From: Natranaerobius thermophilus JW/NM-WN-LF
GTDB lineage: Bacteria; Bacillota; Natranaerobiia; Natranaerobiales; Natranaerobiaceae
Direction of reading: 5' to 3'
NCBI RefSeq assembly: GCF_000020005.1
Contig: NC_010718.1
Span: forward strand, 2,190,001-2,254,000
DNA length: 64,000 bases
The notes below the pieces were generated by a model. The model did not search any database. It was not told the DNA's origin and saw nothing but the letters and a program-made list of their open reading frames with translations. Position numbers and translations under genes: made by a program. How positions within the stretch are numbered: position 1 is the first letter of the stretch; every line of letters starts with the position of its first letter. Of this stretch, positions 40,488-52,980 are shown piece after piece.

Positions 40488-43400
40488 CTATTCTGTACCA
40501 AGGGCCTGATAAATAGAGTTCGAAACCATTGGGAATTGATTGCTTGGATGCGCTCTATTGATTGTGCAGTTAGCAAATAAGTAGTACTGTTGTCCATCAA
40601 GTTCGTTCTTTATTGCCATAATTTGTCCTTCCGCATCTTGGTATCCTTGGTGAATTAGTTCTCCATCTTCATCTTCTTCTGCTGGCCACCAACCTGATAC
40701 ATAGAAATCTTCTTCTTGTATTTCTGCCAGTACTGTAGCTGATTCAGGAACATCTGTAAACCAAGTTCCTGAATTGCTGTATAGATAATCTTTTCCAGGG
40801 TACGGTGCCATCACAAAATTATCATTATTTAAATCAGCTCTTAATAAACCTTCATGTGTAAAATCAGTAGTTTCACTCTGAATTCCTTCAAACAGTTCTA
40901 ATTCACTTTCAACCACTGAATCTACAGCATAACCTGTAGAAGCAATATAAGGCATACCATCTTCGATGTATTCTTCCACTATATCCCAGTCAGCATGACC
41001 TTCGTCATCAACTATGATATTTGCTTCATCTAGTTTGTCTCTAACTTCTTCTTGATCCAGATCAGACCATCTGTTATAAAAATCATATTCATGAACTAGC
41101 TCAAAACCAAGTTTTTCTCCCATTACAAATTTTGATTGATATCCAAAGGCTGCTACCTTGGGTAGTTCATCTAGAACAATCACTTCTGCATCGCCATCAT
41201 ATTCTTCTACTTCGAGATGGTAGTCTTCAGCAACTTCCTCAAGCTTATGTCCGTCTACCACAAAGTCTCCTTGACCAAATTCATCTTGTTCTTCAGCAAT
41301 AATTTTGACTTCATATCCTTTCCCGAGAAGGTCATTCACCGCTCTAGTTGTTTCATTAGTACTATTTTCAATGACATATTCATCAGCTTGAGCAATATAC
41401 TGATCAGGTTCTGGCAATTCGTCCCTGTCCACTTCTGTCACAGACTCATCAAATACATCTTCTTCTTGAATTTCATCAGCATCAAATCCTCTTGTACGTG
41501 GTAGTGCATTAACAACTTCAGCGTACATAGCATCCCATTCAGAGAAATCTGGTCCATCCCACATTATAGTATTCGCAAAACCACGATGGGCCTGTTCCAT
41601 AGGGATAACATAACTACCTTCTGGATATATTTCTTCGTTAACTTCAACATCTTCAGTCAATTGCTCAATTATGACCCCATTTCTAAGCATATATTCTACC
41701 GTTCTATAGACCTCATACTCATTTCTTTGATCTTCTCCCACGGGCATTACCCAATATTCTGGGAAAAAGCTTTCTCCTTCAGCCCTAGGCCTGCCAATGG
41801 ACTCAAGATCGGGATCAACAAAATATTCATCCACCTTTTCTTCAGCGTCTTCTCCTTCAACTCCTCTTCTTAAATATTCAAGTTGATTGTCAAAAACTGA
41901 CTCTTTATTATCTTTAATAAAATCAAAGGAAGCTTTTACCACATATTTAGTCCATTCATGAGAGTCTTGATTTAATCCAGGCATTTCTATAGTATGACCT
42001 AAAGCACCAAAATGCATAGCATGCATTGGAGTATAGGCAGCAGTACCATCGTCCCATCCTGTTCCATAATCTGTTCTTGGAATAGAGGCACGGTTATCGG
42101 GACCCTTATAATCCTCGTTATCTGTACTGGTGAATGCTGCATTTCTCATGGCTTGGGCATGATCTAGAGCATAATTCATATATAGATCGTACTCGTAATT
42201 AAAATCATGAGGTGGTGTACAAGGTTCAATTAATCCACCGCCAAAGGCTCCCCGTACAAAGCCATGAAGATCTAAAAATACAGCGGGTTTCCAATAACTA
42301 ATTAGGTCTTTTTGTTCCTTATGCTCTTGTTGTGTTTGGAATGCATTATCTCTATTCAAGTCGAAACCATGAATGTTTTCTCTAGTCATAACTTCTCTAC
42401 CATCTGGGTTGATAGTAGGATGTACTATTATGATTAGTTCTTCAAGTAAGTCATCCACATCAATAGTTTCAGTCCATTCTTCTGCTTCATCCGCATCCAT
42501 GTCAGCTACCCAATCAGTTGTATTAAATTCTAATTCATCATCTTGTAACAATGCTTCTAAAATTTCTATTTGAGCATCTATTCCCGGAGTTTCATCAGGG
42601 TGAATGTTTGTTATATAAATCGGGTATCTGTAATCTTCTATCTCACCATCCTCAATCTTGTCCTGTAATTTTCCGGGATCCTCTTCCATCAAAGGCAAAA
42701 TTTCTTCTTCGTATTTATCAACAGAATCCTGTGAGTCTGAGACTACTATTAAGGGGATATCATGACCTTGCACTGATTCACCAACCATCTCATAATCATA
42801 ATACCTGTCGTCTTTTGCCTCATCTAAAATTTCCTCAATTGCTGGAGTGATTTCATCCCAGGTATGATAAGAATCATAGGGATATAATTTCAATTCATAA
42901 TTAACTCTTTCTCCTGACTCTTTATCAGTTATCATTAAATCGTGATAACCCTTTAGTTCTTGGATTCTATGTCTTATTACTCTTGGTGCCAAGTCATCTG
43001 TGCCATAGGGTTTATCTACAGCTATAGTTGCAGTCACTTCATTATCATGAATATATGGTCCTTCGGCAAATCTTATAAAAGGATCGCCATCATACTCTTC
43101 CGTTTCCTCATCAAATGCCTTCCATTCATTAAAGATCGTTGCTCCTAGAGTCCACTTTAAATTATCTCTATCTACCTCTTCTTCGAATTCAAAGTTAAGT
43201 TCAAATTCTCGAGCTTCCGTCATTGAGGCTTCTAAAGTGTCTTCGGGTTCTGGGGCTGTTAATTTATTTAAAGTTTGGAATACTATTTCACCAAAAGTTT
43301 CTAACCTCTCTTCAACTCTTCCAGGGAAATCTTCTTCTAATACCTCCAGGCGATCTTCATCGGTATGCCATATAGCTCCATGTTTTTCCGTTTGAGTATA

Positions 43401-44231
43401 TCCATCACCATCTCCAATTTCCCAGTTTGTAGCTTCAAAATTCAAAAATGGTATATCTTCATAAGCAAAGGACGCATGGTCTGACCAAGGTCCAGTTGTG
43501 CCTCTAGGATAATGTTCGTGCTCTCCTGGACTTGTGTTTAGATCAAGGTCTAAGTTATCAGCCAGTTTAAGGATATCATCTAAAATCCAATTGTCTTGAA
43601 CCAAATCGCCATCCATTTCAGTATCTGACATCGCGTCGTAAACATACATTTTGTCTCCTGCTATTAAGCTGTCAAGATTAATCATAGCTTTGGTATTTTC
43701 AATTTCCTCATCAGTCATTTGATTTACATAATAATTGGAGCCCTGTAAGCCAACTTCTTCTGCTCCAAAAGCTATAAAGACTAGGGTATGTTCAGTATCA
43801 ATATCAGCAAATCTTTCGGCAACTTCTAACATAATGCCTACACCAGAAGCATTGTCGTCAGCACCTAAAGTTTCCGAGTAATCCACAGTGTCAATATGAG
43901 CACCCATTACAACTTGTTTATCAGTGGATCCTTCCCGTGTTGCAATAACGTTTTTTGAATCAATATTTTCTTCTGTTTCTTCATAATAAAATGTAAATTC
44001 TTGAAATTCCGTACTATAACCATACTCTTCAAATTCTTCCTTGACATATTCCGCTGCTTCCAGTTCTTCATCACTTCCTGCTGGTCTTTGCCCAATTTCT
44101 TCAGATAGTTCAAGGATATGTTCGTAAGCTCTTTCTCCATACTCGTTACTGTCTTCAATGGCCACAGCAGGACTTGATAATAGAATTATACAAGCAAGAC
44201 CTATAATAGCAGTAATCTTCCCATAATTCAT
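40488..44231 (-). CDS. Giant secreted double metallopeptidase: M28 aminopeptidase-like plus M14 carboxypeptidase-like
   Basis: 1247 residues, signal peptide MNYGKITAIIGLACIILLS. Residues about 30-325 form an M28 domain with zinc ligands His112 (GAHIDTV), Asp125/126 (GADDNASG), Glu158/159 (FGAEEVG), Asp187 (NLDSL) and His252 (SDHASF). Residues about 455-800 form an M14 domain with HxxE at His544/Glu547 (NIHPDETPG), Arg612/Arg627 (NPDGRE, FDLNRD), His656 (FLDLHGF) and Glu749 (GHTIEMPG). The last about 450 residues are unassigned. Extremely acidic throughout. Both active sites appear complete. ATG at 44231 follows AAAGGAGGA. It should scavenge peptides outside the cell. Confidence 0.9.
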   Translation of the reverse strand: MNYGKITAIIGLACIILLSSPAVAIEDSNEYGERAYEHILELSEEIGQRPAGSDEELEAAEYVKEEFEEYGYSTEFQEFTFYYEETEENIDSKNVIATREGSTDKQVVMGAHIDTVDYSETLGADDNASGVGIMLEVAERFADIDTEHTLVFIAFGAEEVGLQGSNYYVNQMTDEEIENTKAMINLDSLIAGDKMYVYDAMSDTEMDGDLVQDNWILDDILKLADNLDLDLNTSPGEHEHYPRGTTGPWSDHASFAYEDIPFLNFEATNWEIGDGDGYTQTEKHGAIWHTDEDRLEVLEEDFPGRVEERLETFGEIVFQTLNKLTAPEPEDTLEASMTEAREFELNFEFEEEVDRDNLKWTLGATIFNEWKAFDEETEEYDGDPFIRFAEGPYIHDNEVTATIAVDKPYGTDDLAPRVIRHRIQELKGYHDLMITDKESGERVNYELKLYPYDSYHTWDEITPAIEEILDEAKDDRYYDYEMVGESVQGHDIPLIVVSDSQDSVDKYEEEILPLMEEDPGKLQDKIEDGEIEDYRYPIYITNIHPDETPGIDAQIEILEALLQDDELEFNTTDWVADMDADEAEEWTETIDVDDLLEELIIIVHPTINPDGREVMTRENIHGFDLNRDNAFQTQQEHKEQKDLISYWKPAVFLDLHGFVRGAFGGGLIEPCTPPHDFNYEYDLYMNYALDHAQAMRNAAFTSTDNEDYKGPDNRASIPRTDYGTGWDDGTAAYTPMHAMHFGALGHTIEMPGLNQDSHEWTKYVVKASFDFIKDNKESVFDNQLEYLRRGVEGEDAEEKVDEYFVDPDLESIGRPRAEGESFFPEYWVMPVGEDQRNEYEVYRTVEYMLRNGVIIEQLTEDVEVNEEIYPEGSYVIPMEQAHRGFANTIMWDGPDFSEWDAMYAEVVNALPRTRGFDADEIQEEDVFDESVTEVDRDELPEPDQYIAQADEYVIENSTNETTRAVNDLLGKGYEVKIIAEEQDEFGQGDFVVDGHKLEEVAEDYHLEVEEYDGDAEVIVLDELPKVAAFGYQSKFVMGEKLGFELVHEYDFYNRWSDLDQEEVRDKLDEANIIVDDEGHADWDIVEEYIEDGMPYIASTGYAVDSVVESELELFEGIQSETTDFTHEGLLRADLNNDNFVMAPYPGKDYLYSNSGTWFTDVPESATVLAEIQEEDFYVSGWWPAEEDEDGELIHQGYQDAEGQIMAIKNELDGQQYYLFANCTINRAHPSNQFPMVSNSIYQALGTE

Positions 44232-47434: not shown

Positions 47435-48244
47435 TTATTTCTCTGTCTGTTCTGTGTCTGTCTGATCTTTTTCTTTAGTTAAATACGCCCTTACGATCAG
47501 TCTTCTCTCATCAGATCCCGGTGGGTGACAAGTAGTTAAAGTTAATGCAGGATCATCTGTTGGACGAATAACACTCCAATCACTACTATGAGTATCAAAA
47601 ACGCGATCAACTTCATAACGATATTTTTTTCCTTCACGATAAACTCTGATAGAATCACCTTGGTCTAATTCATTTAAGTGCCGAAAAGGTCCCCCATAAG
47701 TAGTTCTGTGACCAGCTATGGAGAGGTTCCCCGTCTCGGGTCGACCACTTTCTGGATAAAAACCTGGTCCATGTGCTAAATCAGATAGTTCTACACCAAA
47801 ACCCACTGCTAACTGAAGGTCAATTTTAGGTATTTCTATTAATCCATCGGCAGGTTCCAATTCAAAGGCAAATTCTTCTTCCTCACTTTTATCTTCATCG
47901 GATTGTAAAGAAGGATTTTCATTTTTTGGATCCTCTTCAGGATCATTTAATTCACTTTGGGCTATTTCAATATCTCGATATCCGAGTTTTTTCCTTGAAG
48001 AATTTAATACTTGTGTGTCCTGTTCCAATTCTTCTAGTTTTTCAGCCACTTGCTTTTCTTGGATTCTTTGATAGTAGATATTTTGTAAATAAGGAAAGCT
48101 GGCCAGGGACACCCCGACCAGCACTAGTACGATCCCAACTACAGTACGGGTTTCAATGTTTTGTTTATGAGCTTTTATTGAATTATTTAATTTCAATAGT
48201 TTGGTTTTATAGTGTTGTAACTGATTTTTAACTTTGTCTGTCAC
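47435..48244 (-). CDS. Class D-type sortase
   Basis: 269 residues. A cytoplasmic N-terminus and one membrane helix (TVVGIVLVLVGVSLASFPYL) are followed by an acidic linker (about 75-135) and the sortase barrel. The catalytic His is in NLSIAGHRTTYGGPF, the Cys in LTLTTCHPPGSDERRLIV, and the Arg is the RR of that motif. TLTTCHPPG is typical of class D/E. The substrate is very probably the LPETG protein encoded 62 bp upstream. GTG at 48244 follows GAGGGTGA. Confidence 0.9.
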   Translation of the reverse strand: MTDKVKNQLQHYKTKLLKLNNSIKAHKQNIETRTVVGIVLVLVGVSLASFPYLQNIYYQRIQEKQVAEKLEELEQDTQVLNSSRKKLGYRDIEIAQSELNDPEEDPKNENPSLQSDEDKSEEEEFAFELEPADGLIEIPKIDLQLAVGFGVELSDLAHGPGFYPESGRPETGNLSIAGHRTTYGGPFRHLNELDQGDSIRVYREGKKYRYEVDRVFDTHSSDWSVIRPTDDPALTLTTCHPPGSDERRLIVRAYLTKEKDQTDTEQTEK

Positions 48245-48306
48245 AGCATTTCACCCTCGTGTAGATTTGTGTTAAAAGGAAAATGAAGAATAAAACGGGT
48301 TATAGG

Positions 48307-48816
48307 TTATTTCCTTCTACTAATAACTAACCAAGCACCACCAGCAGCTACTAGTCCACCGATGCCTGGCAATAATGTAGCTACTCCGCCACCAGTTTCT
48401 GGAAGGTCTTCTTCCTCTTCTTCCTCTACATCTTCTTCTACGTCTTCTTCTGCTTCTTCTGCAACTTCTTCCCCAGCTAGAGCATCTCTAACTGCTTCTA
48501 CAATCCCTTCACTAGAAGCAGTTGCACCTGTTTCAACATCTACGTCTGTACTTTGTGCTTCTATAATATCATCCATAGTTTGCTTTCCATCTTCCCAGTA
48601 TTCAGGTGTTTCTTCTTGACTAATCGCTTCAATGTTAGTCACTTCTCCACCTTCAACAGTCACTTCAACTTCTATAGCCTCATTAAATCCTTCACCAGCG
48701 CCAGTGTAAGTACCATCTGGTACATTATCCAAGTCTACTCCAAAGGCCATAGCTCCAGTCACCATGAATAAACTTAGAACAAACACAAATCCTGTACTAA
48801 ATAAAATTCTTCTCAA
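48307..48816 (-). CDS. Secreted, sortase-anchored FMN-binding (flavinylated) protein
   Basis: 169 residues from TTG at 48816, with GGGAGGGAG 5 nt upstream; the ATG at 48837 has no SD. Signal peptide RRILFSTGFVFVLSLFMVTGAMA. One FMN_bind domain (VPDGTYTGAGEGFNEAIEVEVTVEGGEVTNIEAI in part) contains the flavinylation motif D-V-E-T-G-A-T, in which ApbE-type enzymes attach FMN to the last Thr. A Glu-rich linker leads to LPETG, a hydrophobic helix and RRK, a complete cell-wall sorting signal. It would be a covalently wall-bound flavoprotein for electron transfer outside the membrane. Confidence 0.88.
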   Translation of the reverse strand: MRRILFSTGFVFVLSLFMVTGAMAFGVDLDNVPDGTYTGAGEGFNEAIEVEVTVEGGEVTNIEAISQEETPEYWEDGKQTMDDIIEAQSTDVDVETGATASSEGIVEAVRDALAGEEVAEEAEEDVEEDVEEEEEEDLPETGGGVATLLPGIGGLVAAGGAWLVISRRK

Positions 48817-48969
48817 AAGTACTCCCTCCCATTTCATAATATATTGGTCCTTATTACATTACTATTGTTCTACAAATATTTTATAATTCCTTCCTTAAAA
48901 TGTTATTTATGAAAATAATAAAAATTCTTATAACTAACAATACATCCTTTTCCTAAATGTCTTTATATT

Positions 48970-50157
48970 CTAGCAATCTTGTTGATCTATCCTTTTTCTA
49001 GCTAATTCACAATATTCGCGAGAAATATCTATACCCAAAAATCGACGATTGTTTTGGTGAGCAACAACAGGGGTAGTACCACTTCCAACAAAGGGGTCTA
49101 GAATTATATCCCCTTGATAACTAAACAATTTCATAACTCTCCTTGCCAACTCTTCTGGAAACATTGATGGATGTTTATAATTTTTCATATTTTTTTCCGG
49201 GGCGATACTCCATTTTCCATAAACCCATTCTTTAAATTCCTCAGCGCTTATGTCTATATTCTCTTTTTTGCCTTGTTTTTTCATGGTTCCTTTGCAAAAT
49301 ACCTCTAAAAATTCCCAGGTATATTTCATATAAGGATTAGAAGGACTTTTCCAGCTTCCCCATGCCGTATACTTGCAATTATAATTATTTTTTTCCCATA
49401 AGATTTCGGCTTTCCATATCAACTTCTTCTTAATAAAAAAGTTGCTAATAAAATGATGAATAGGTATATAATCCGAAAACAGGGGCTGTACATTGACAAT
49501 TATTCTACCACCATACTTAGTCACACGAATGCATTCATCCAGAATTCTATAAAGCTTATCAAAATAAATAGACCAATTCATGGCGTCTTGATGATTATCA
49601 TATTCTAAACCAAAGTTATAAGGTGGAGATGTAAAAACTAAATCTATGCAATTTTCTGGCATTTTTGATAATAATTGTTCACTGTCAGCACAAATTATTT
49701 GATTTTCATATTCTTTAGGAACTGCGTTATTTGTTACTTTAAAATCGGCATCTTGTGCATAAAAGAATTTGCCACGTTGAGTTTCTTTTGCTTTTCTATC
49801 TTTGACTTTCCTCTCATCATTAAAATTTACAAAAACTTTTTTTCCACCTTGGTAAGTATAACTTTTAATATTTTCTATTTTAGTTAACAAAGCTAGTAGG
49901 ACATTGTCTTCACTAACTTGCTCTGATACAAATTGAAATATTAAGTCTTTTAAGGAATTTACATCAAGCTTATTTAAAAACACAATCAATTTGTGGTCAT
50001 AAGTCTCAATTATCAAATCATCATTACTAAAGGCATCATTAATTTGTCGTAAGCCTCGCTTTTCGGATTTGGTCAACTCATTTTTATTTATTGGGATAAA
50101 TATTTTTTTGTAATTTTCAGACGTTTCACCGTTAATATGAAAAGCTTTATCTTTCAT
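48970..50157 (-). CDS. Orphan DNA methyltransferase (N6-adenine or N4-cytosine, beta class)
   Basis: 395 residues. The catalytic motif IV TSPPYNFGLEY (near 170) precedes motif I LDPFVGSGTTPVVA (near 360), the beta-class order, with a target-recognition region between. About 130 residues at the N-terminus are unassigned and may add target or partner contacts. No restriction enzyme lies on either side. ATG at 50157 has AAAGGAG 12 nt away; an ATT is 6 nt from the same SD, so the start is uncertain. It could serve regulation or be the remains of a restriction-modification pair. Confidence 0.85.
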   Translation of the reverse strand: MKDKAFHINGETSENYKKIFIPINKNELTKSEKRGLRQINDAFSNDDLIIETYDHKLIVFLNKLDVNSLKDLIFQFVSEQVSEDNVLLALLTKIENIKSYTYQGGKKVFVNFNDERKVKDRKAKETQRGKFFYAQDADFKVTNNAVPKEYENQIICADSEQLLSKMPENCIDLVFTSPPYNFGLEYDNHQDAMNWSIYFDKLYRILDECIRVTKYGGRIIVNVQPLFSDYIPIHHFISNFFIKKKLIWKAEILWEKNNYNCKYTAWGSWKSPSNPYMKYTWEFLEVFCKGTMKKQGKKENIDISAEEFKEWVYGKWSIAPEKNMKNYKHPSMFPEELARRVMKLFSYQGDIILDPFVGSGTTPVVAHQNNRRFLGIDISREYCELARKRIDQQDC

Positions 50158-50319
50158 CCCAATGGACAACTCCTTTAAGCTTCATACTTACTATCACCGT
50201 TCATAATTATTTCATCATAGTAAGTCACTTCGCCATTAATTAACTCAAGTCCTTTAGCAGTCTCTTATTAATTTCTATACTGCTGGATATCCTAATTCAA
50301 CCATGGAAACTGAATTAGA

Positions 50320-51291
50320 TTAATAATAATCTAAAGGATTCACATGTTCACCGTTTCGACGAATTTCAAAGTGCAAATGAGACCCGGTAGCGTTACCGCT
50401 ATTGCCTACATGACCTATGACTTCACCTTTTTCCACACTTTGCCCCACACTCACAGTGTGGCCGGCATTGTGAGCATAATAAGTTTCATAGTCACCTGGA
50501 TGTTCTATGATTATCAGATTCCCATAAGATCCTCGCCAACCCGAAAAAGTTACAGTCCCGGATTCTGCCGCTTTAATGCTTGTCCCATGAGAAACTGCAA
50601 TGTCTATTCCACTGTGAAATCCTCGGCTTCGCCAGCCATATTTAGAAGATATTTCATTCATCCCGTTTTCTATTGGGAATAAAAACTCAGGTTTTTCGTG
50701 ACTGTGTATTTCTCGATGACTGGCATCCAAACTTTCTAATCCTTTTTCTTCCTTAATTTCATCAAGCTCTTTTTTTACCTGTTGGATTACTGCTTCTTTT
50801 CGTTCACGAGCTTGTCCTTCGGTAAAATTAAAGACCAATCCCAATCCTTGATGGGATCTGTATACCAAATCTAGATCGAAGCAACGGTTAATCACTCTTA
50901 TCGGAACCATGGTACGCCCATCAACTAGCTCTGGCCTCGTTTCCATCTTCTGCATCTCATCATTTAATTTATAATTGTTTGAACCAATGAACATTTTCAA
51001 CTCCATATCTTCATCTTCCACGATAATTTTATCTTCATCAGGAAACCAATCAACTTTTGAGTCTAACTCTTCAGATATAAAGCGAAGGGGAATCATAGTT
51101 CTATTATTATCATCTATGTAAGGAGTAACATCCTGAAAAATTACCTGAGAATCATTTAAAAAAACTACAGTTTCATAATCTTCAATTTCTTCTACTATTG
51201 CCCCAAAACTTATCGAGGGGAAAGCGACTAACAAAGTGATAGCAATAAAAAATGAATAGACTAAAAAACCTGGTTTACTAATGATTATCAT
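50320..51291 (-). CDS. Secreted stalk-domain M23 metallopeptidase
   Basis: 323 residues. Signal peptide (LVYSFFIAITLLVAFPSISFG), stalk domain at about 35-145 (TMIPLRFISEELDSKVDW, TMVPIRVINRCFDLD), a coiled linker (about 150-195) and an M23 LytM domain at about 205-323, with zinc ligands in GFHSGIDIAV (HxxxD) and SHLHFEIR (HxH). It cleaves peptidoglycan crosslinks. ATG at 51291 directly abuts the SD AAGGAG (0 nt spacing); ATC lies 6 nt from it in the same frame, so initiation is unusual. Confidence 0.88.
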   Translation of the reverse strand: MIIISKPGFLVYSFFIAITLLVAFPSISFGAIVEEIEDYETVVFLNDSQVIFQDVTPYIDDNNRTMIPLRFISEELDSKVDWFPDEDKIIVEDEDMELKMFIGSNNYKLNDEMQKMETRPELVDGRTMVPIRVINRCFDLDLVYRSHQGLGLVFNFTEGQARERKEAVIQQVKKELDEIKEEKGLESLDASHREIHSHEKPEFLFPIENGMNEISSKYGWRSRGFHSGIDIAVSHGTSIKAAESGTVTFSGWRGSYGNLIIIEHPGDYETYYAHNAGHTVSVGQSVEKGEVIGHVGNSGNATGSHLHFEIRRNGEHVNPLDYY

Positions 51292-51471
51292 CTCCTTAAT
51301 TTTAATTAGACTCCAAAAGGTATAATATCATAAATTTAAAAAACTTGATACTATAATTTGTCAAAATTTGCTGTCATCATTTTATGACATTTTTTCACCA
51401 TTACATAAACTTGTTAACATAGGGATTAAAATGGTATTTTGGTAATAGAATTTAACTTCGGAGGTGATTCT

Positions 51472-52980
51472 GTGAAAAAAATCATCTGCTTTGGATTATG
51501 TATGGTATTAGTTTTCTCATTAAATTCTTTATGTTTTGCTGAAGAAACCAAGGTTATAGTCGATGGAGAAGAGATTGACTTACAAGATCCCGTGAGAATT
51601 ATTGAGGGAAGGACACTATTACCTGCTAGACCTTTATTTGAAAGTTTAGATGCAGAGATGAATTGGAACCCTAAAACCGAAACAGCCATTGGTAAGATGA
51701 ATGGTCATCAGGTTGAAATTCCCCTCAATGAAGAACAGGCTAAAATCAATGATGAGCCCCGCAATTTGGAAGTACAAGCTGAAACCTATGAGGGAAGAAC
51801 TTACATACCACTACGATTTGCAGGAGAGGCTTTGGGTGGAACTGTCGAATGGGATAGCAAAAAAAACGCAGCAATTATCACAACTGATGCAGTAGAACCA
51901 GATCCGGCTAAAAAAGAAACAAGCCCAGAAAAAACTGAGCCAGGACAGTTAACAGCTCATTTTATAGATGTAGGCCAGGGAGATGCCATATTTTTAGAAG
52001 CTCCTTGTGATAGTCACATTTTAGTCGATGGTGGCTTAGAACTAGAAAGTCAACCTGTAGTTAATTATCTAGAGGAACTTGGAATAAATAAAATTGAAAA
52101 AGTAGTAGCAACTCATCCCCATCAAGATCATATTGGTGGGCTGATTGATGTTTATCAAAACTTCGATGTTAAAACCACTTATGATAGCGGTTATGAACAT
52201 GATACCCTCACTTATGAAAAATATTACGAAATAGCAAATGATGTTTCTAACTTTAAAACTGCTAGACAAGGAGACAAACTGGAAATTGACTCCTTGGGGG
52301 CCGAATTTATTCATCCACCCCAGGGACATACAGGTGAAGTTCACGATTTGAACCTTGTTTTAGAGGTTGAATTTAAAAATCAATCCCTTTTACTAACAGG
52401 TGATGCTGAAAAAGATACAGAGCAGATGATAATAGAAAGAGCCAGTGACATTTCTAGTGAAATTTTAAAAATCGGTCACCACGGCAGTTATACTAGCAGC
52501 AGTGAAGAGTTTTTAGAAGCAGTTGATCCTGAAGCAGCGGTAATTCAAGTTGGAGAAGACAATCAGTACGGTCATCCTCATGACCAAGTCCTAGAAAGGT
52601 TAGCTGAACAAAATATAGAAATTTATAGAACTGATTATCATGATGACATAGTAATGGAACTAGACGAAAACACTTGGCAAGCTGAAGTTGAACCTTGGAA
52701 AAAAGAAGATGGAGAACTCCCAACAGATCAAGACGCAGATGATAAAGACACAGTTACTGAGGAAAAAGACGATCAGGATCAAGAACTGATTAATATAAAT
52801 CAAGCCGAGAAAGAAGAATTAACTCAGATCATTAATATCGATGTGGACAGGGCAGAACAAATTGTAGAGTTACGAAAAGAACGACCTTTTACTTCCCTAG
52901 ATGACCTGGAACGTGTTAAAGGGCTAGCCGAAGTAACCATTGGAGAAATAAAGGATGAAGGAATAGCTTACGTCGATTAA
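51472..52980 (+). CDS. Secreted stalk-MBL-HhH protein (ComEC-type MBL fused to ComEA-type HhH)
   Basis: 502 residues. Signal peptide (KKIICFGLCMVLVFSLNSLCFA), stalk domain (about 30-130; TLLPARPLFESLDAEMNW, TYIPLRFAGEALGGTVEW), a metallo-beta-lactamase fold of the ComEC C-terminal type (about 145-390; ATHPHQDHIGG, LLLTGDAEKDTE, LKIGHHGSYTSSSEEFL), an acidic linker and a ComEA-type helix-hairpin-helix pair (about 440-500; ININQAEKEELTQIINIDVDRAEQIVELRKERPF). GTG at 51472 has GGAGGTG 5-6 nt upstream. It should cut and bind DNA outside the cell. Confidence 0.87.
   Translation: MKKIICFGLCMVLVFSLNSLCFAEETKVIVDGEEIDLQDPVRIIEGRTLLPARPLFESLDAEMNWNPKTETAIGKMNGHQVEIPLNEEQAKINDEPRNLEVQAETYEGRTYIPLRFAGEALGGTVEWDSKKNAAIITTDAVEPDPAKKETSPEKTEPGQLTAHFIDVGQGDAIFLEAPCDSHILVDGGLELESQPVVNYLEELGINKIEKVVATHPHQDHIGGLIDVYQNFDVKTTYDSGYEHDTLTYEKYYEIANDVSNFKTARQGDKLEIDSLGAEFIHPPQGHTGEVHDLNLVLEVEFKNQSLLLTGDAEKDTEQMIIERASDISSEILKIGHHGSYTSSSEEFLEAVDPEAAVIQVGEDNQYGHPHDQVLERLAEQNIEIYRTDYHDDIVMELDENTWQAEVEPWKKEDGELPTDQDADDKDTVTEEKDDQDQELININQAEKEELTQIINIDVDRAEQIVELRKERPFTSLDDLERVKGLAEVTIGEIKDEGIAYVD

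Follow-up and report, generated by a model that had tools for sequence, protein, structure and literature searches.

A small FMN_bind protein with a cell-wall sorting signal and its adjacent sortase form a conserved pair that may place covalent flavin in the wall of Natranaerobius thermophilus

How electrons pass across the wall of single-membrane bacteria without surface cytochromes is an open question. In the flavin-based extracellular electron transfer (EET) system of Listeria, the carrier protein PplA is reportedly a lipoprotein. For flavinylated proteins in large multi-FMN clusters, binding to the wall has been proposed to occur via SLH, Rib, FIVAR and LysM domains, and RNF clusters with a multi-FMN RnfG have been suggested to pass electrons on to alternative acceptors outside the cell (Meheust 2021, PMC8238504); the text of that study makes no mention of LPXTG or sortase. 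Among structurally characterized relatives are CbFMN4 and SaFMN3, and the corresponding report gives the flavinylation motif in the form Dxx[S/T]GA[S/T] and a midpoint potential of -184 mV for SaFMN3 (PMC10339131). In this work we analysed a stretch of 64,000 nucleotides (hereafter the window) from Natranaerobius thermophilus JW/NM-WN-LF that contains an FMN_bind protein gene and a sortase gene. Both genes lie on the minus strand, the flavoprotein gene first and the sortase gene 62 bp downstream of it, and a scan of the gap found no terminator-like site. The features of the pair, in window coordinates, are as follows.

48307 to 48837, minus strand: open reading frame of the FMN_bind-LPETG protein (PF04205, PF00746, TIGR01167)
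48745 to 48816, minus strand: signal peptide as counted from the TTG start (RR in the n-region, hydrophobic core, AxA-type site; read from the sequence)
48520 to 48540, minus strand: flavinylation motif D100-V-E-T-G-A-T106, which fits Dxx[S/T]GA[S/T]
48406 to 48477, minus strand: acidic linker of 24 residues, 71% Asp plus Glu (read from the sequence)
48310 to 48405, minus strand: cell-wall sorting signal, LPETG with hydrophobic stretch and RRK (PF00746 and TIGR01167 over cut-off)
47435 to 48244, minus strand: sortase of 269 residues with a GTG start (PF04203, 108 bits)

The open reading frame of the flavoprotein has two possible starts, an ATG at 48837 giving 176 residues and a TTG at 48816 giving 169 residues; the Shine-Dalgarno sequence at the TTG (GGGAGG) is good, and better than that of the ATG. 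The protein matches FMN_bind (PF04205) at 57 bits (E 3e-15, Pfam cut-off 22), Gram_pos_anchor (PF00746) at 21.3 bits against a Pfam cut-off of 20, and LPXTG_anchor (TIGR01167) at 19.1 bits against an NCBIfam cut-off of 15.9. A preliminary description had portrayed a 169-residue protein in which a signal peptide precedes a single FMN_bind domain that bears DVETGAT, an acidic linker and LPETG, followed directly by its sortase gene, and both the build and the arrangement are confirmed. In the 176-residue numbering the signal peptide is predicted to be cut after GAMA and before F32 (the AMA recurs in the homologue described below), and LPETG occupies residues 145-149, ahead of the hydrophobic stretch and RRK. 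Cleavage between the Thr and Gly of LPETG would leave a mature protein of 117 residues, consisting of one FMN_bind domain plus the linker, with 42 Asp plus Glu, one Arg and one Lys, the latter inside the FMN domain. T106 is the predicted site of FMN attachment. The nearest solved structure, found with alignment profile A1 at 65 bits, is PDB 8p2b, domain 1 of CbFMN4, which carries covalent FMN on a threonine (PMC10339131). AlphaFold predictions, made with shallow alignments, were of low quality (mean pLDDT 43.5 and 47.7).

The sortase has an N-terminal membrane segment and the catalytic residues H179, C239 and R248, all three of which are invariant in sortase alignment A2. Against the NCBIfam models it scores 107 bits for class E (cut-off 160), 92 for SrtD (cut-off 140), 83 for class C and 72.9 for class D (cut-off 165), so that every class falls below its own cut-off. 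Its first PDB sequence matches are 5uus, 2ln7 and 4d70, ahead of SrtE1 (5cuw); we take 2ln7 and 4d70 to be class D sortases. On these data the enzyme appears to lie between classes D and E, NCBIfam ranking E first and the PDB matches favouring D. Of the preliminary assignment, the sortase is confirmed (PF04203 with His, Cys and Arg in place), and class D is one of two candidate labels, all class models being under cut-off. (Note that a GC-rich hairpin of 11 pairs with a T-rich stretch, terminator-like in appearance, lies inside the sortase coding sequence at 48122-48098 on the minus strand; the idea that it is an attenuator was dropped, the matching stretch of the G002 locus described below being different.)

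The genome searched comprises 3,191,453 bases in three contigs, of which the chromosome accounts for 3,165,557. In all of it there is one sortase, and one protein that exceeds the cut-off of the Gram_pos_anchor (LPXTG) model, namely the flavoprotein of the window; relaxing the threshold of the LPXTG model added three sub-cut-off matches, and the two readable ones are ordinary membrane segments. So, within the range of LPXTG-like signals, the sortase appears to have one recognisable client, and the genome content supports the idea that the flavoprotein and the sortase are a dedicated pair.

The arrangement recurs in G002, a genome from another family of the same order. There, a 164-residue FMN_bind-LPETG protein, 64% identical to that of the window, is followed after 39 bp by a sortase that is 57% identical to its counterpart and that shows the same pattern of NCBIfam classes. 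Recurrence in another family at these identities argues that the pair is not a product of chance. Moreover, none of the genes around the pair in G002 correspond to those around the pair in the window, and retention of the two genes through rearrangement is the strongest evidence that they may form a functional unit. The surroundings of the flavinylation motif are kept in both proteins (AQSTDVDxETGATxSSEGI), with the motif itself the same as DVETGAT apart from an exchange of V for L, and G002 likewise has one LPXTG protein over cut-off. A second sortase of G002 (L139:6275-6952, locus coordinates) has no adjoining LPXTG protein. In a tree, the FMN domain of the wall protein groups with that of the G002 wall protein and with the last domain of a multi-FMN lipoprotein of G002 (support 99/98). 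G001, a genome from the same family as that of the window, has FMN_bind proteins and neither a sortase nor an LPXTG protein.

We also surveyed an even sample of 398 genomes across the phylum, and found FMN_bind relatives in 120 of them and related sortases in 86. Plasmid records contained no FMN_bind matches other than distant ones. Sortase loci, 93 in number, were read together with the sequence on either side. A few of these entries overlap one another, and roughly ten weaker sites were left out; the loci represent D/E-like sortases of one phylum, and Bacilli and Actinomycetota would be covered only if they belong to that phylum. An LPxTG-type open reading frame lies within a few kb of the sortase at 40 of the 93 loci, which argues that the substrate-sortase arrangement is in itself ordinary. 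Pairs of an LPxTG-FMN_bind gene and a sortase, a survey of which the preliminary description had proposed, yielded a second case: an FMN_bind gene is found beside the sortase only in the genome of the window and in G002 among these roughly 93 loci. In one further genome, G345, an FMN_bind gene lies about 13 kb from a sortase that is adjoined by a different LPXTG protein.

The locus contains none of apbE, NDH-2 or eet beside the pair and so is not a Listeria-type flavin EET locus. A DNA methylase gene (N6_N4_Mtase, 48970-50169, minus strand) whose product has about 150 N-terminal residues with no assignment lies directly upstream of the flavoprotein gene. Adjacent divergent genes at 50320-51291 and 51439-52980 each encode a Cu_amine_oxidN1 domain at the start, combined with peptidase M23 in one and with metallo-beta-lactamase plus HHH in the other, and the gene at 40488-44231 (minus strand) encodes an exported protein of 1247 residues that reads as an apparent fusion of two metallopeptidase-type regions. 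The pair is distant from apbE, from RNF genes and from all other FMN_bind genes, so any tie to these is not by gene neighbourhood.

The preliminary description had viewed the two genes as a minimal electron-transfer pair. That view is wrong, given what the whole genome contains. There are 27 FMN_bind matches and two RNF clusters (the RNF and Mrp genes were recognized by eye from sequence and order). One RNF cluster includes an RnfG with three FMN_bind domains, and the other has Mrp-type antiporter genes, apbE and a gene for a PF07456 protein downstream of it. The apbE gene is the only one in the genome and encodes an ApbE flavin transferase (305 bits) that is a predicted lipoprotein; the presence of such an enzyme is what the preliminary description required. 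(Note that a PF07009 protein is encoded elsewhere in the genome; PF07009 and PF07456 are, we assume, the families of EetA and EetB, and since a publication checked for this link mentions neither, it provides a lead only.) Also encoded are FMN lipoproteins with one to four domains each, PplA-like two-FMN lipoproteins among them, a lipoprotein combining FMN_bind with FAD_binding_2 that is predicted to be a flavinylated FAD-reductase, and a secreted protein of 725 residues (L032:7355-9532) with four FMN_bind domains, a Cu_amine_oxidN1 domain like those of the two divergent genes in the window, and no lipobox. Within the genome, the paralogue nearest to the wall protein is the first FMN domain of this 725-residue protein, at 50% identity. 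Three-FMN_bind and five-FMN_bind proteins of RnfG type are found at L026:9740-10846 and L027:6565-8307 (locus coordinates), the latter outside any RNF cluster. With two RNF clusters and FMN lipoproteins in the same genome, the wall protein adds to lipoprotein carriers rather than replacing them, and is probably one relay within a larger flavin network.

Covalent flavinylation, wall attachment and electron transfer are all deduced here from sequence. On balance we lean towards the view that the two-gene unit puts a covalent flavin in the cell wall, where it would likely relay electrons between membrane or lipoprotein carriers and the outside. The small protein would leave the cytoplasm through Sec, and its C-terminal sorting signal would keep it at the membrane; the lone ApbE, predicted to be a lipoprotein and to face outward, would attach FMN to T106; and the dedicated sortase would then cut LPETG after its Thr and join the flavoprotein to peptidoglycan. 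This order of export, retention, FMN transfer and linkage is the most likely one. The outcome would be one FMN per protein, held by an acidic tether of 24 residues that we estimate to reach at most about 8 nm when extended. A flavin on a tether can swing, and a single FMN cannot by itself bridge a thick wall; because the tether is too short for this, electrons would have to be handed over by partners, for example RNF-linked multi-FMN proteins, lipoproteins or the 725-residue protein. Candidate donors are encoded in the form of the two RNF clusters, the three-FMN RnfG, the five-FMN RnfG-like protein and the FMN lipoproteins. As to direction and partners, we infer that electrons most likely pass between RNF, multi-FMN RnfG-type proteins and PplA-like lipoproteins on one side and, on the other, acceptors or secreted flavoproteins located within the wall and outside it. 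The host is a salt- and alkali-loving bacterium, and in the physiology literature we found no statement about its use of external acceptors.

A flavinylated, wall-bound protein might instead serve local redox chemistry of the wall or surface, for example in the repair of surface proteins or as a docking site for the 725-residue protein or a reductase, and not long-range EET. The single FMN per molecule, the existence of a secreted, non-lipoprotein candidate partner of that kind, and the fact that FMN_bind proteins supply many different reductases (PMC8238504) are consistent with this explanation, which we consider rather unlikely, about one chance in four; the immediate neighbours of the pair include no reductase or thiol-redox gene, whether in the genome of the window or in G002. 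That the domain is a structural or binding module, anchored in the wall and unflavinylated in the cell, is less probable still: apbE does not lie near the pair, but the genome has an ApbE, the full GAT motif is conserved with its surroundings, and the homologous domain 1 of CbFMN4 is covalently flavinylated (PMC10339131).

Two further explanations concern the fate of the C-terminus. Covalent linkage being a prediction, the protein could stay in the membrane via its C-terminal hydrophobic segment with little or no linkage to the wall. We regard this as highly improbable, for the sole LPXTG protein and sole sortase of the genome have been kept together across families, and unless this protein is its substrate, the sortase lacks a recognisable target. 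Lowest of all do we rate the idea that the sortase polymerises the protein via lysine into a flavin-bearing pilus in the manner of a pilin sortase. Sortase and substrate are indeed adjacent, and the class C model does reach 83 bits, but the class E and SrtD models outscore it, and no tip or base pilin gene was found near the pair. Moreover, the mature G002 homologue contains no lysine, and the one lysine of the window protein lies inside the FMN domain. The lysine-linked pilus was rejected as unlikely because of the lack of lysine in the mature G002 protein.

If the wall protein is indeed a flavin relay, then a sortase of this order wholly given to fixing a covalent-flavin carrier could, more tentatively, mean that the wall itself is a redox-active layer of tethered flavins leading from RNF-driven membrane flavoproteins to the outside, with neither multi-haem cytochromes nor soluble shuttles involved, a proposal we hold as possible though short of probable. 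A carrier at a fixed covalent site that is the sole substrate of the sole sortase would allow a clean test through one gene, as loss of the sortase should shift flavin out of the wall and leave the flavin chemistry untouched.

Wall-associated flavoprotein clusters have already been proposed, and what appears new here is the predicted sortase anchoring of a flavin carrier; we found no sortase-anchored flavinylated carrier in the literature on LPXTG or sortase with flavinylation or on flavin-based EET. The earlier claim that a wall-bound carrier represents a distinct design fits the predicted mode of anchoring and is tempered by the lipoprotein carriers that coexist in the genome. CbFMN4 and SaFMN3 (PDB 8p2b and 8p2a) belong to the same domain family and carry covalent FMN via Thr; they differ in being multi-domain proteins, and no wall anchor is described for them in the available part of PMC10339131. 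The multi-flavinylated wall clusters (Meheust 2021) likewise involve flavinylated proteins for which a role inside the wall or on the surface has been proposed; in contrast to these, the window protein is predicted to be anchored covalently and has a single FMN. Compared with other single-substrate pairs of sortase and substrate, the substrates of the window and of G002 are the only ones to carry FMN_bind among the 93 loci examined. With PplA and the EET system of Listeria (Light 2018) the pair shares a small exported FMN_bind carrier, ApbE-type flavinylation and electron transfer at the outer face (both predicted here), and a Gram-positive-type cell; in contrast to PplA, the window protein ends in LPETG, has a dedicated sortase and one FMN site, and is encoded outside any EET gene cluster.
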